64,000 nt of DNA from Pseudobdellovibrionaceae bacterium. GTDB lineage: Bacteria > Bdellovibrionota > Bdellovibrionia > Bdellovibrionales > UBA1609. The position numbers were made by a program, and so were the translations under genes. Shown piece by piece: positions 58,114 to 63,820 of this stretch (the first letter of the stretch is position 1; the number at the start of each line of letters is the position of its first letter). Under the pieces are notes generated by a model. That model did no database searches and was not told where the DNA came from. It saw only the letters and a program-made list of their open reading frames with translations. The stretch is taken from positions 1 to 64,000 of the forward strand of contig CANEZP010000020.1 of NCBI GenBank assembly GCA_947444305.1. The letters are read 5' to 3'.

Positions 58114-59547
58114 TTATTGCACCAGCTCCGTGGCCAACTGGTCAAACAGCCGTCGGACCAGATCTCCTTGTTCGGCCTTTCCGTTGAATATGAAGGCGAA
58201 AGCCTGGACCGACCCATCCTTGTGTCCAGCATAACCAGCGAGCGCGACCACCCCGGTGAGAAGCCCCGTCTTCGCGCGTACCCAACCGGTCGCCGGCGAA
58301 TTCTTCATTCGGTTTTTCAAAGTGCCGTCGATCCCAGCGAGCGGCATCCCGCTCATGAACTCGGCGAAGGTGGGAAAGTTTTGTTGCTGCTTCGCCAAGA
58401 CCATCGCGAGATCCACCGGGCGGATCCTGTTCTTGCGGCTTAAACCGGATGGGTTGAGCAGAATAAATTTCTTCGGATCGAGGCCCATATCTTCAAGATT
58501 GTCGCGGATGATCTTCATGCCGCCGTCCAACGTCGCGGGAACGGTGCCCGCCTGCGCCGCTAAATTTTTGGTCAACATCTCGGCCACGAAGTTGTTAGAA
58601 AACTTAAGCATGTCGGCGACGTGAAGGCTTACCGGTTTGGACTCGGCCTTCGCCAGCAGCGTGGCTTTTTCCGGCCGTTTGCCCGCTTTGACTTTGCCGC
58701 TTACGGTGATGCCACGTTGTTCGAGAAAGAAAACCAAATTATTTCCGGCCCACTCGTCGGGGTCGTCGATATTTTTAAATACCGCCGCTTCATTGCTGCC
58801 GAGACCGATCGTCCCCGACACGCGAACCGTATTGCCCGAGCGCGAGACGTCCAAGTTCGTGCCGGTTTTGTTCACGGTCTTGGCGCGATTGTCGATTTTG
58901 AAACCATTCGCGATCGGATCGAGCACGACCTGCGGCGCCTGCCCGACTTGTGCCGGACGAATGAAGATATTGATCGAATTCCAATTAAAGGACATAGCGC
59001 CGACGGGAGCGTCGTAAGCGCGGTCGACCCGCTCGGGATCGCGGCTCGGATCCGAGCGCACGCTATCGAAATCGCTGTCGTCGACGACGATGTTGCCCTC
59101 GACTTTTTTGATTCCCGTGCGCACGAGCTCGTTCACCAAGAACCACATGCTCTCGCTAACGAAGCCCGCGTCGCCCCCGCCCTTCAAAACTAAATCGCCG
59201 TCGAGTACGCCGTTCTTGACCGAACCCGAAGACCAAAGCGTCGTTTGGAATTTGAAACTCGGTCCCAACTTTTGTAATACGGCGGCCGCGGTCGCGATCT
59301 TCGTGACCGACGCGGGAATGAACGCTTCGGTCTCGTTTAAGCCGTAAATCATCCGTTGCGGCGTGGCCCCCAAATCGACCACCGCCAAGCCCAATTTCGT
59401 TTGCGGAACCGAGAAAGATTTGAGCACCTTCGAAAGACGCGCGTTGAGGTCCTTATTGTCCGCATTTTTCTGCGCGAAGGCGGGAATACCGAAAATCATT
59501 GCGGCGAGAAGAAGGATTCTGGACACGGCCACCTCGATTGCTATCAT
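58114..59547 (-). CDS. dacB: D-alanyl-D-alanine carboxypeptidase/endopeptidase, PBP4 type
   Basis: FIPASVTKIATAAAVL; KFSNNFVAEML; NPSGLSRKNRI; VRAKTGLLTGVVALAGYAG. Confidence 0.93.
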   Translation of the reverse strand: MIAIEVAVSRILLLAAMIFGIPAFAQKNADNKDLNARLSKVLKSFSVPQTKLGLAVVDLGATPQRMIYGLNETEAFIPASVTKIATAAAVLQKLGPSFKFQTTLWSSGSVKNGVLDGDLVLKGGGDAGFVSESMWFLVNELVRTGIKKVEGNIVVDDSDFDSVRSDPSRDPERVDRAYDAPVGAMSFNWNSINIFIRPAQVGQAPQVVLDPIANGFKIDNRAKTVNKTGTNLDVSRSGNTVRVSGTIGLGSNEAAVFKNIDDPDEWAGNNLVFFLEQRGITVSGKVKAGKRPEKATLLAKAESKPVSLHVADMLKFSNNFVAEMLTKNLAAQAGTVPATLDGGMKIIRDNLEDMGLDPKKFILLNPSGLSRKNRIRPVDLAMVLAKQQQNFPTFAEFMSGMPLAGIDGTLKNRMKNSPATGWVRAKTGLLTGVVALAGYAGHKDGSVQAFAFIFNGKAEQGDLVRRLFDQLATELVQ

Positions 59548-59555
59548 TGAGTCGC

Positions 59556-61070
59556 ATGACGCTTAATTTAAGACCCATTTTTCTTTCCCCGCTACTGATT
59601 TTTGCCGGCCTCCTCGTTTCTTCGTGCACGGGCGGCCGGAAAACTCCGCCCGACACGCTGGTCGTCGCCTTGGGTGCGGCGCCTTCGACGCTGGACCCGC
59701 GCTTTGCGACCGACGCGAACGGTATGCGCATCGGCGGTCTGATTTTCAATTCGCTCGTCAGGCCCGGAACGGATTTTAAGCCCACGGCCGACGGCGCCGA
59801 ATCGTGGTCATATAAGGACCACGCCTTCATCTTCGAACTTCGCAAAGGCCTAAAATTCCACAACGGCCGTGAAGTGACACCCGAAGATGTTTTGTTTTCG
59901 TTCGAACAGTACCGGCTGCCCGCCTCACCGTTCGCGTCGATATTAGATTCGGTAACCGGCGTCGACGCGGTAAAAGCCGGGGACGGGCACATCACCGTCA
60001 CGCTGAAAGTTAAAAACTATTCCGACAAATTCTTGGTGAGTGATTTACCGGGAGTAAAGATCCTACCGAAAGAAGAAACGCTTAAGGCCGGCCCCGACTT
60101 CGCGAAGGTCTTGCTCGGCACGGGCTCATACAAATTCGTTAGCCAAGATTCGTCGAACGTCCACCTCGAAGGCGTCACGGCAAAAACTAAAAAACTAAAT
60201 TTTAAAATCATCCGCGACGATTTCACTCGCTACCAAAAATTATTGAAGGGCGAAGTCGATTTAGTCCAAAGCGATATTCCTCTCGATAAGGTCGACGATT
60301 TTGAGAAACGCCAAGACGAATTTCAGGTCATTCGCTTCCCTGGCTTGACGATGACTTACGTGCTGCTCAACTTTAAAGATCCGGCTCTCAAAACGAAGGA
60401 AGTCCGGCAAGCCCTTTCACAAACGCTGCAGCGCCAAGACATCATTACGCACAAGTTGAGGGGCCTGGGGGTTGAGGCGACCTCGTTGCTCACGCCGAAC
60501 AATCCCTATTTCAACACGGAGCTGGTGAACCCGGCGTTCAATTTGGCGGCGGCGAAGAAGACAATCGAAAAGCTCGCGCTCGCCGGTAAAAAGCTGACGC
60601 TGAAGACGTCGAACCAACCGGCGGCGGCCGACAACGGCAAGGTCATCGCGCATCAGATGTCACAGTCGGGTTTAAACGTCGAATTACAAACTTACGAATG
60701 GGCCACCTTTTACGATGACGTAAAGAAGGGTAATTTCCAAATGGCGACGATGAAGTGGGTCGGTACCATTGATCCCGATCTTTACCGCATCGCTTTTCAC
60801 TCGAAAGAAACTCCCCCGGGCCGCAACCGTGGTTCGTATTCGAATGCCAAGCTCGATCCCTTACTTGAAAAAAGCGCCGTGACCGAAGACCTTGGCCAAC
60901 GCAAAAAAGTTATGCTCGAGATCCAGAAGATCGTGCACGAGGACCTCGTGATGATTCCCCTGTGGTACGACCAACAGGTCGCGGTCGCTCGCAAAAACAT
61001 TTTAGATTATCACCCCGTGCAAACCGGCGAATTTCAACCGTTCGCCGAGATTAGAAAGTCGGATCAATGA
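59556..61070 (+). CDS. ABC transporter solute-binding lipoprotein, peptide family
   Basis: Lipobox LVSSCTGG; SBP_bac_5-like APSTLDPRFATD, FELRKGLKFHNGREVTPEDVLFSFE. Confidence 0.92.
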   Translation: MTLNLRPIFLSPLLIFAGLLVSSCTGGRKTPPDTLVVALGAAPSTLDPRFATDANGMRIGGLIFNSLVRPGTDFKPTADGAESWSYKDHAFIFELRKGLKFHNGREVTPEDVLFSFEQYRLPASPFASILDSVTGVDAVKAGDGHITVTLKVKNYSDKFLVSDLPGVKILPKEETLKAGPDFAKVLLGTGSYKFVSQDSSNVHLEGVTAKTKKLNFKIIRDDFTRYQKLLKGEVDLVQSDIPLDKVDDFEKRQDEFQVIRFPGLTMTYVLLNFKDPALKTKEVRQALSQTLQRQDIITHKLRGLGVEATSLLTPNNPYFNTELVNPAFNLAAAKKTIEKLALAGKKLTLKTSNQPAAADNGKVIAHQMSQSGLNVELQTYEWATFYDDVKKGNFQMATMKWVGTIDPDLYRIAFHSKETPPGRNRGSYSNAKLDPLLEKSAVTEDLGQRKKVMLEIQKIVHEDLVMIPLWYDQQVAVARKNILDYHPVQTGEFQPFAEIRKSDQ

Positions 61071-61981
61071 ACCGTCCGCTCTTACTCTGCGTCGATGATG
61101 AAAGCGCGATTTTACAATCACTCGAGAGAGTTTTTAAGGACCAGTTCCGCGTACTCACCTCGGAATCACCCGCCGAAGCGCTCGAAACCTTGCGACTCAA
61201 TACCGATTGCGCGATCGTTCTCAGTGATTACCGCATGCCCGGAATGAACGGCGTAGAATTTTTAAGACACGCACGCACGATCGTGCCGCTGACCTCACGC
61301 GCGATACTTTCCGGCCAAATTGATTTGTCGCAAATCAGCGAAGCGATCAACAACGGCGACATCCATAAGTTTTTTCTCAAACCTTGGGAGAACGAGTACC
61401 TCGCCCTACAAATGCAGGAAGCTTTGCAGATGCACCGTACGCTGCGCGAGAAAGCGCATTACGAGCGTCTGGCCATCACCGATCCCGTTACGCAATTGAC
61501 GAATCACCGTTTCTTTCAAGATCAAGTGCGGTTAGAGATCCGCAAAGCGAGTGACGCGAAATCACCGTTATCGCTGATGATCGTCGACGTCGATCACTTC
61601 AAAGGTTTCAACGACCGCTTCGGGCATCCCGAAGGCGACCGCTTACTGTTTAAGCTTGCGGGTTTTTTGCAAGATACGGTCAAGAACCGCGGCTACGTTT
61701 CACGTTACGGCGGCGAAGAATTCACCGTGATCCTTCCCGGCTTTGATACCGCCGAGGCCACGACTTTCGCGAACGAAATTCGCTCGAAGCTTGAACAGAC
61801 TCCGCTGGCCGGACCCACGTCGAGCCCAACTTTCGTCACCGTTAGTTCTGGTCTGGCTTCGTATCCTCAACACGGAATCAACGCGGCCGACCTGATTGAA
61901 TCGGCGGACAAAGCGCTTTATCAAGCCAAAAGGCAAGGCCGAAACCAAGTCGCGATTGCTGCGCCGTCTAAGCCCGGCTAG
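61067..61981 (+). CDS. Receiver-GGDEF response regulator (diguanylate cyclase)
   Basis: CAIVLSDYRMPGMNGVEF; LMIVDVDHFKGFNDRFGHPEGDRLL; SRYGGEEFTVILPG. Confidence 0.95.
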   Translation: MNRPLLLCVDDESAILQSLERVFKDQFRVLTSESPAEALETLRLNTDCAIVLSDYRMPGMNGVEFLRHARTIVPLTSRAILSGQIDLSQISEAINNGDIHKFFLKPWENEYLALQMQEALQMHRTLREKAHYERLAITDPVTQLTNHRFFQDQVRLEIRKASDAKSPLSLMIVDVDHFKGFNDRFGHPEGDRLLFKLAGFLQDTVKNRGYVSRYGGEEFTVILPGFDTAEATTFANEIRSKLEQTPLAGPTSSPTFVTVSSGLASYPQHGINAADLIESADKALYQAKRQGRNQVAIAAPSKPG

Positions 61982-61992
61982 AATTTAAGGAT

Positions 61993-62928
61993 ATGAAAAA
62001 ACGCGATTGGCTCTTAGTCATCTCCCTTGTTCCCGCAACCTGGATCTTCGATCAACTGACCAAAGCTTGGGCCATGTCTTCGCTCGCGGAATTAAAATTC
62101 TACGGTTTTTTTGGTTTGGTTCTGCACCACAATCCCGGCGCGATCCTCGGCACGTTTGCCGATCTCCCGCCCGTTTTGCGCGTGGTGAGTTTATCAACCG
62201 GCGGCGCATTTTTAATCACGATCTACGCGGCTATCCAGTACTTGTTGCCGTCACGCTCGCTTCCGCTACGCGCGGGCATGTCGCTCTTGCTCGGCGGTAT
62301 TTTAGGTAACGTGACCGACCGTATCGTTTACGGCGCGGTCACCGACTTCCTCGTGTTCGGCAGCCGTCAACTATCGACGCCCGCCTTCAACGTAGCCGAC
62401 GCCGTTCAGTGGGTCGGCTACCTGCTCGTCGTTTACGGACTCGTCCGCGACGGCTCACTCTTCTGGCCCGACGCTAACGTTCGCAAAACGATCTGGGTGA
62501 ATCCCCGCTTTCAATTGCGCTTTTGTTTCACGATGGTCGCGATCGGCGCGTGCTTCTCGATCGTCAGCGGCGTCTTTGCTTATACGTTTTTAAAAATTAC
62601 GATCGACGATCTCGTCGTCGGCCCCGCCCGCATGATGGAAAAACGTTTCCTCGTGCCGTTCTTGCAAACTTACATCATCATCGCGTTCGGCTTTATGGCG
62701 ACCCTATTCGCGCTCGGCCGCATCCTCTCGCACCGGATGGCCGGCCCGATCTACGGGTTCGAAAATTACCTGAAAGATTTAATGCGCGGTAAGGACCGTA
62801 AGTTCCGCGTGCGTCAAGGCGATGAATTCAAACACCTCGAAGACCTCGCCGACCAAATGCGCCCGCTCATCGCCGCCGCCGTCGCCGAAATCCAACGCGA
62901 AGAAGAAAAACGCCTAAAGTCGGTTTAG
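61993..62928 (+). CDS. lspA: Signal peptidase II fused to a two-TM HAMP-like domain
   Basis: DQLTKAWA, HHNPGAILGTF, GGILGNVTDRIVYGAVTDFL, FNVADAVQWVGYLLV; ~150-aa C-terminal extension ending in HAMP-like RMAGPIYGFENYLKDLMRG. Confidence 0.88.
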   Translation: MKKRDWLLVISLVPATWIFDQLTKAWAMSSLAELKFYGFFGLVLHHNPGAILGTFADLPPVLRVVSLSTGGAFLITIYAAIQYLLPSRSLPLRAGMSLLLGGILGNVTDRIVYGAVTDFLVFGSRQLSTPAFNVADAVQWVGYLLVVYGLVRDGSLFWPDANVRKTIWVNPRFQLRFCFTMVAIGACFSIVSGVFAYTFLKITIDDLVVGPARMMEKRFLVPFLQTYIIIAFGFMATLFALGRILSHRMAGPIYGFENYLKDLMRGKDRKFRVRQGDEFKHLEDLADQMRPLIAAAVAEIQREEEKRLKSV

Positions 62929-62953: not shown

Positions 62954-63820
62954 TTAAATCGGGGCTATCGTCACGGCCGAGATGTGTTCTAAGAAATAGC
63001 GTTTCGGGCGAATGTCGTCGCCCTCGTTGTTTCCTTCGGTCGCGACTAAGTAATCGCCGTCGGGATTTCGCACTAAACCCATCGGAAATACCTTGCGCGG
63101 CTCACCGGGCCGCGACCCGGATTCATAAACTAAAATAATTTCGCGCTTATCACGCAGCGCACGTACCATCGCGCGGAAGTGATCGCGTTCGGTTAATTCA
63201 TCGACCGAAAAACGCTTCCAAGGCAGATGCGTGTTCTGAAAACCCATGATGTCGGACAGCTTCGCTTCGCGCCCTAGCTTTTCGAAATACTTCATCGCGA
63301 CCGCTAAGCAAGTCTTTGCGTCGTCGAGCGCACGATGCGCGGCCCCAGCTTCAACGCCGAAGTGTTTGGCCAGAGTCGCCAAGCGATGATTCGAAACGTC
63401 GGCGTTGATCGCGCGGCTAATGAGGCTGGTACAAAACCCGGGATTGTCGGGCAAAAGCATGCGCGCTTTTTCGAATTCCCAAGTCAAAAAGCCCATGTCG
63501 AACGGCGCGTGGTGAGCCAGGATGAAACCGTCTTTGATGAACTCGTGAAACTCGGCCAGCTTATGCTGAAGCAAAGGCGCGGTTTCGACCATTTCGTTCG
63601 TGATGTTGTGAATCGCGATGACCTCATCCGACATACGGACCGCAGGCTTCAACAGCGTTTGGTAAGTGCCGACGATCTCGCCCGCACGCCACTTCACGGC
63701 GGCCATTTCACAAATTTCGGCGTCGAGCGGGTATTTGCCCGTCGTCTCTAGATCAATGGCTACGAAAGTCGTCTCGAACCATAGTTTTTTTAGGATTTCC
63801 ACCCCACTGTCTTGCCTCAA
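62954..63820 (-). CDS. DnaQ-like 3'-5' exonuclease
   Basis: VAIDLETTGKYPLDAEICEMAAV, LAHHAPFDMGFL, HRALDDAKTCLAVAMKY. Confidence 0.88.
   Translation of the reverse strand: MRQDSGVEILKKLWFETTFVAIDLETTGKYPLDAEICEMAAVKWRAGEIVGTYQTLLKPAVRMSDEVIAIHNITNEMVETAPLLQHKLAEFHEFIKDGFILAHHAPFDMGFLTWEFEKARMLLPDNPGFCTSLISRAINADVSNHRLATLAKHFGVEAGAAHRALDDAKTCLAVAMKYFEKLGREAKLSDIMGFQNTHLPWKRFSVDELTERDHFRAMVRALRDKREIILVYESGSRPGEPRKVFPMGLVRNPDGDYLVATEGNNEGDDIRPKRYFLEHISAVTIAPI

Follow-up and report, generated by a model that had tools for sequence, protein, structure and literature searches.

A HAMP-fused second signal peptidase II in Bdellovibrionota and its candidate link to a non-canonical lipobox

The window, by which we mean the whole 64,000-nucleotide stretch of DNA analysed here (contig CANEZP010000020.1 of a Pseudobdellovibrionaceae bacterium), carries a gene encoding a signal peptidase II (LspA) that continues into a two-transmembrane (TM) HAMP module, hereafter LspA-HAMP (Table 1). 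Its reading frame (61993-62928) is uninterrupted, with zero internal stops. The layout found across the order Bdellovibrionales places LspA-HAMP divergent from dacB and convergent with the exonuclease-WYL gene, with the SBP lipoprotein gene, the response regulator-GGDEF gene or both lying between LspA-HAMP and dacB in some genomes.

Table 1. Coordinates of the LspA-HAMP gene, its parts and its neighbours in the window
Feature	Position	Strand	Basis
dacB-like D-Ala-D-Ala carboxypeptidase (S13), divergent; most constant neighbour in the order	58114..59547	-	Pfam, neighbourhood comparison
SBP_bac_5 solute-binding lipoprotein, canonical lipobox VSSC; often in the same gene string	59499..61070	+	Pfam, neighbourhood comparison
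Response regulator-GGDEF, upstream, 11 bp before lspA-HAMP; in a minority of relatives	61067..61981	+	neighbourhood comparison
lspA-HAMP gene, 311 aa plus stop, ATG start	61993..62928	+	orthologues found
Signal peptidase II (Peptidase_A8) domain, residues 1-155, four TM helices	61993..62457	+	Pfam, alignment, AlphaFold, Foldseek
NPGAILG motif (residues 47-53), candidate specificity position; canonical LspA of the phylum mostly NxGAAFG	62131..62151	+	alignment
Codon of catalytic Asp D118 (VTDF motif)	62344..62346	+	sequence, alignment
Codon of catalytic Asp D136 (FNVAD motif)	62398..62400	+	sequence, alignment
Q139-W140, one turn past catalytic D136	62407..62412	+	alignment
TM5 and TM6 (residues 171-240), short periplasmic loop between	62503..62712	+	AlphaFold, module comparison
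HAMP domain (residues 241-290), predicted cytoplasmic	62713..62862	+	alignment, homology to HAMP-matching proteins
Exonuclease (RNase_T) fused to WYL domain; conserved neighbour across the order	62954..63820	-	

An earlier note, made from the letters alone, had read the N-terminal part as LspA with both catalytic Asp motifs. Our searches bear this out, since Pfam Peptidase_A8 matched residues 15-150 (E=4e-25, 89.2 bits against a cut-off of 25) and both D118 and D136 are in place. The TIGR00077 lspA equivalog scored 46.9 bits, below its cut-off of 73.95 bits; by these profile searches the window protein is an LspA homologue that falls outside the TIGR00077 housekeeping equivalog call. All ten LspA family residues are present in the protein, and D20, K24, N47, G49, N106, D109, R110, D118, N133 and D136 were invariant in 30 of 30 fused orthologues. 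The AlphaFold model built on this 30-member alignment (pLDDT 85) contained the four LspA helices, followed by helices at residues 171-207, 212-264 and 281-310. A Foldseek search with the whole model matched LspA structures only, 5DIR, 6RYO and 6RYP (E 1e-5 to 1e-7, probability 1.00), over its first half, and none covered the C-terminal half. LspA-HAMP thus resembles known LspA (PF01252 Peptidase_A8; 5DIR, 6RYO) in fold, four-TM core and all catalytic and motif residues, and it is strongly implied that it would use the same aspartate chemistry. It differs in a two-TM HAMP extension of ~155 residues and in the altered motifs described below.

The three helices beyond the enzyme fit a pair of TMs that lead into a two-helix HAMP domain. 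No notable Pfam or NCBIfam match was obtained for the residues after the LspA domain, and none of the 30 fused members matched Pfam HAMP (PF00672) directly in the profile scan. The same genomes do encode small free-standing proteins that match residues ~165-290 of LspA-HAMP; three of them (L044, L047 and L051) score above the Pfam HAMP cut-off, and other free-standing relatives have their matches in TM2-HAMP segments from histidine kinases, BaeS among them (E=3e-8). Aligned with hhalign, the profile of the fused tails matched the profile of the free-standing HAMP proteins with 99.5% probability, while a PDB sequence search with the module profile returned marginal HAMP-containing matches only, with NarQ at E=0.01. 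Both groups share one module, NPxFQ-TM-TM-SHRxxGP-HAMP, in which the NPxFQ motif starts the TM5-TM6 segment and the HAMP segment has the consensus LSHRxAGPIYxFExxLxDL..GK..R.R.GDEF..LE.LA; unlike LspA-HAMP, the free-standing proteins are not fused to an enzyme. The two TMs and HAMP-like segment of the earlier note are confirmed, and the segment is a real HAMP in character. It may serve as a regulatory or oligomerisation element. Mean column conservation in the 30-member alignment was 0.72 for the HAMP region and 0.70 for the enzyme part. Altogether, LspA-HAMP is almost certainly a true paralogue of LspA that carries a HAMP module.

Several variants of this architecture were observed. The small free-standing two-TM HAMP proteins (L041, L042, L044-L053) form a family without an output domain, with several members per genome. 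One natural fusion (L156:3924-5378) consists of LspA-HAMP and then a C-terminal AhpC/TSA redoxin domain, and at two further loci (L154:3633-5594 and L155:4463-6418) LspA-HAMP continues into a CxxCH outer-membrane-barrel-like protein, a part that is a separate adjacent gene in relatives (L159, L171).

We then asked whether the fusion could be an artefact of an overlooked frameshift, a misplaced start or the merging of two genes. In the initial search of 40 genomes, that of the window among them, every genome contained an LspA match; 35 of them, again including that of the window, encoded the full-length fusion without stops at 42% identity or more, and three others encoded a divergent fusion. 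A frameshift or merged gene was rejected on the basis of these 35 genomes and the invariant residues of the 30 orthologues, and we give the artefact practically no credence, as the same uninterrupted architecture recurs in dozens of genomes from many families.

The named-genome scan retained 80 loci. Almost all carry the label Bdellovibrionales, Bdellovibrionota or Bdellovibrio, and a complete genome of Bdellovibrio bacteriovorus (L101) is represented. A Bdellovibrionota LspA-HAMP locus lies on a metagenome-assembled contig labelled Streptomyces griseus (L095, CALQIT020000013.1), a record that is probably misnamed. In 241 genomes of the phylum the fusion was near-universal in the order and patchy in the other families of Bdellovibrionota. 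Genomes with LspA-HAMP also retain a canonical lspA, and the second, canonical copy that the earlier note had suggested looking for was found between ileS and an lgt-like gene (L001, 181 aa). The genome of the window has three LspA-domain genes in total. The third (L003, G000:C3:273699-274535) encodes 292 aa with all catalytic residues and a HAMP-like tail, and forms a long branch of its own on the tree. A single branch of the tree of LspA domains split LspA-HAMP from canonical LspA (99/98 support, 98% of bootstraps). The two form separate clades and coexist in one genome. On the best reading LspA-HAMP is an additional signal peptidase II, a paralogue that occurs across the phylum and is parted from housekeeping LspA by one deep split. 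The literature searched, whose coverage left out most subscription journals, described neither an LspA-HAMP protein nor an FQNC lipobox, so that the fusion is not one we could find already described.

The catalytic Asp pair was intact in all aligned copies of the phylum except one. Three full-length LspA-HAMP proteins have eroded active sites (L035, L036 and L037, in G004, G016 and G017), all from small genomes that retain canonical LspA, and in G004 both catalytic Asp are lost. HAMP domains are normally signal transmitters, and it could be argued that the LspA domain acts chiefly as receptor or scaffold, binding signal peptides and reporting via HAMP to another protein, with catalysis secondary. 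Signal transmission would then be the normal role of the HAMP part, and the three reduced genomes, where active-site residues have eroded and the protein retains its full length and its HAMP region, are in line with it. However, the Asp pair is intact in the other 51 aligned fused copies, and those eroded proteins that were placed on the tree are very divergent (branch lengths >3), as fits decay; we consider a receptor of this kind very improbable.

If LspA-HAMP is a working peptidase, how does its active site compare with that of the housekeeping enzyme? With 14 canonical LspA from the phylum as reference, the fused enzymes change GAAF to GA[IM]L or similar, GNY to GNV and DFLD to DFL[LV], and at the second Asp the canonical ADxxIV becomes ADxxQW in the fused enzymes of the order. 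The Q139-W140 pair was present in 30 of 30 orthologues and in 0 of the 14 canonical proteins, with some distant families differing. As these changes flank the active site, it is fair to infer that the substrate pocket of LspA-HAMP is altered.

In family f17, outside the order, LspA-HAMP sits in a different gene string, and the lipoprotein signal peptides there end in YTHC, YNQC, YNHC or FNHC. This string (L159:1504-7628; also L160 and L169-L171) encodes a secreted protein whose start is Tat-like, a pair of non-canonical lipoproteins, LspA-HAMP, and proteins of CxxCH barrel-like and TPR-like type. Because of these endings, we scanned signal peptides for lipobox classes, using a home-made heuristic rule set. 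Signal peptides ending in Cys fell into two main classes, the textbook lipobox, given as [LV][ASTVI][GAS]C in PMC8689077, and [FYL][QNT][NQH]C. In 2.07 Mb from the order, 68 were canonical and nine had N at -1, eight of these nine being F[QT]NC. FQNC was enriched throughout the order: across 69 of its genomes with intact LspA-HAMP, there were 981 matches against 217 for a reversed-pattern control. The pattern [FY]N[QH]CV was tried as a phylum-wide marker and dropped, being near background and non-discriminating.

In the genome of the window, 18 of 20 FQNC[SAG] matches fell exactly at the end of the signal-peptide h-region, with a basic n-region, an uncharged hydrophobic h-region and the Cys at its end. 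Among the proteins concerned are DUF1592-type, carbohydrate esterase, VWA and cytochrome proteins; two of the FQNC proteins (L284 and L287) are related, with 43% identity, and L284 matches a sialic-acid-esterase-like (SASA) family. These linked proteins share with textbook lipoproteins the n-region, the hydrophobic h-region and Cys at +1, and many also carry a Ser/Gly-rich tether after the Cys. They differ in having N, Q or H at -1, where the lipobox rule asks for G, A or S, with Q, N or T at -2 and F, Y or L at -3.

Is this second class linked to LspA-HAMP? At five f17 loci the gene directly upstream of LspA-HAMP, at a spacing of -3 to 22 bp, encodes a lipoprotein with YTHC, YNQC or YNHC, and unrelated lipoproteins directly adjoin it elsewhere, ending in LQNC (f12), YQNC (f17) and FQNC (f16; f20, two loci). 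Outside the order, the non-canonical lipoproteins adjoining LspA-HAMP represent no fewer than five unrelated gene families. In the surroundings of these loci we counted 18 non-canonical and 4 canonical sites, against 1:17 elsewhere in f17 (Fisher test, p=1e-6; p=3e-4 after collapsing homologous genes), a comparison made post hoc, after the pattern had been noticed, and rough because its baseline is two small f17 genome samples, one of them with few lipoproteins.

Within the order, the neighbourhood of LspA-HAMP was without non-canonical enrichment (2 non-canonical versus 34 canonical), and the operon partner was rejected as its substrate there, as the lipobox of the SBP lipoprotein is canonical. 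Another explanation, which takes up the idea of the earlier note, is that LspA-HAMP serves as a second LspA of general purpose, with HAMP gating its activity or location and with its choice of substrate unchanged. The HAMP part is conserved as strongly as the enzyme, the gene is often beside the canonical-lipobox SBP and sometimes beside the response regulator-GGDEF, and the C-terminal redoxin of L156 is consistent with a cytoplasmic regulatory end, all of which would suit such an enzyme. Nevertheless the protein has neither a periplasmic sensor domain nor an output domain, and unchanged specificity leaves unexplained both the recurrent linkage to the non-canonical lipobox and the systematic alteration of motifs close to the active site, so that we regard gating alone as unlikely. 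The regulated or localised processing proposed in the earlier note is compatible with these data, which through the lipobox linkage speak more specifically for altered substrate choice.

The genomes in which LspA-HAMP is eroded or absent were also compared. Five such genomes belong to family f1: in the three with eroded copies (G004, G016 and G017) none of 13 FQNC matches stood at a signal-peptide position, and the two without the gene (G020 and G243) had zero FQNC matches, with canonical lipoboxes retained in G020 (9 in 166 kb). As all of these genomes are reduced (1.2-2.0 Mb), a confounder, the co-loss of FQNC and LspA-HAMP may be general. Another genome, G241, had nine signal peptides ending in FQNC, and LspA-HAMP was not detected in it. 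Its dacB is apparently split between contigs, and on the contig with the start of dacB only ~2.5 kb of sequence lies upstream of that start; where relatives have both the SBP and the GGDEF gene, LspA-HAMP begins at about this distance, which makes an assembly gap in G241 plausible.

In three genomes outside the order (G077, G066 and G123) no LspA-HAMP was found and there were 9-11 raw FQNC pattern matches, against 0-2 in the control. With G241, these genomes are exceptions that speak against a tie between FQNC and LspA-HAMP. Such raised counts would suit an explanation in which canonical LspA processes the non-canonical lipoproteins, or they go uncleaved, and LspA-HAMP is a backup or antibiotic-tolerant copy. 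Myxococcus xanthus, which has several LspA copies (lspA1-4) in one bacterium, offers a precedent, as LspA paralogues with a presumed self-protective role are documented there and antibiotic tolerance has been proposed for lspA3 and lspA4 of the myxovirescin cluster (PMC8689077). Unlike LspA-HAMP, those genes are lgt-linked or lie in the antibiotic cluster, and the passages on them describe no HAMP tail or lipobox link (PMC8689077). Moreover, a biosynthetic cluster was not seen among the neighbours of LspA-HAMP, the gene is conserved across the families of the order with largely fixed synteny, and the non-canonical linkage recurs with unrelated genes. A backup copy is in our judgement rather improbable.

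The reading we prefer, at roughly even chances, is that LspA-HAMP would be an additional signal peptidase II dedicated to the second class of lipobox. In this scheme Lgt would lipidate prolipoproteins in the usual manner, and LspA-HAMP would then cleave those with [FYL]-[QNT]-[NQH]-C in place of [LV]-[ASTVI]-[GAS]-C, its targets being FQNC proteins in its own order and YNQC, YNHC or FTQC proteins in another family. Cleavage would use the same aspartate pair in an altered pocket, and the HAMP module might dimerise the enzyme or couple its activity to a partner.

More broadly, and with somewhat less than even confidence, Bdellovibrionota may run two parallel lipoprotein tracks, one pairing canonical LspA with the textbook lipobox and the other pairing LspA-HAMP, under HAMP control, with the polar [FYL][QNT][NQH]C class, perhaps for a surface- or predation-related set. 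The rule of G, A or S at -1 is the basis of lipoprotein prediction; if a second lipobox with its own peptidase exists, rule-based predictors may miss many lipoproteins of Bdellovibrionota, predatory species among them. It would also make the reading of substrates by LspA testable with two natural enzymes of one cell, and Bdellovibrio bacteriovorus, which carries the gene, is genetically tractable.
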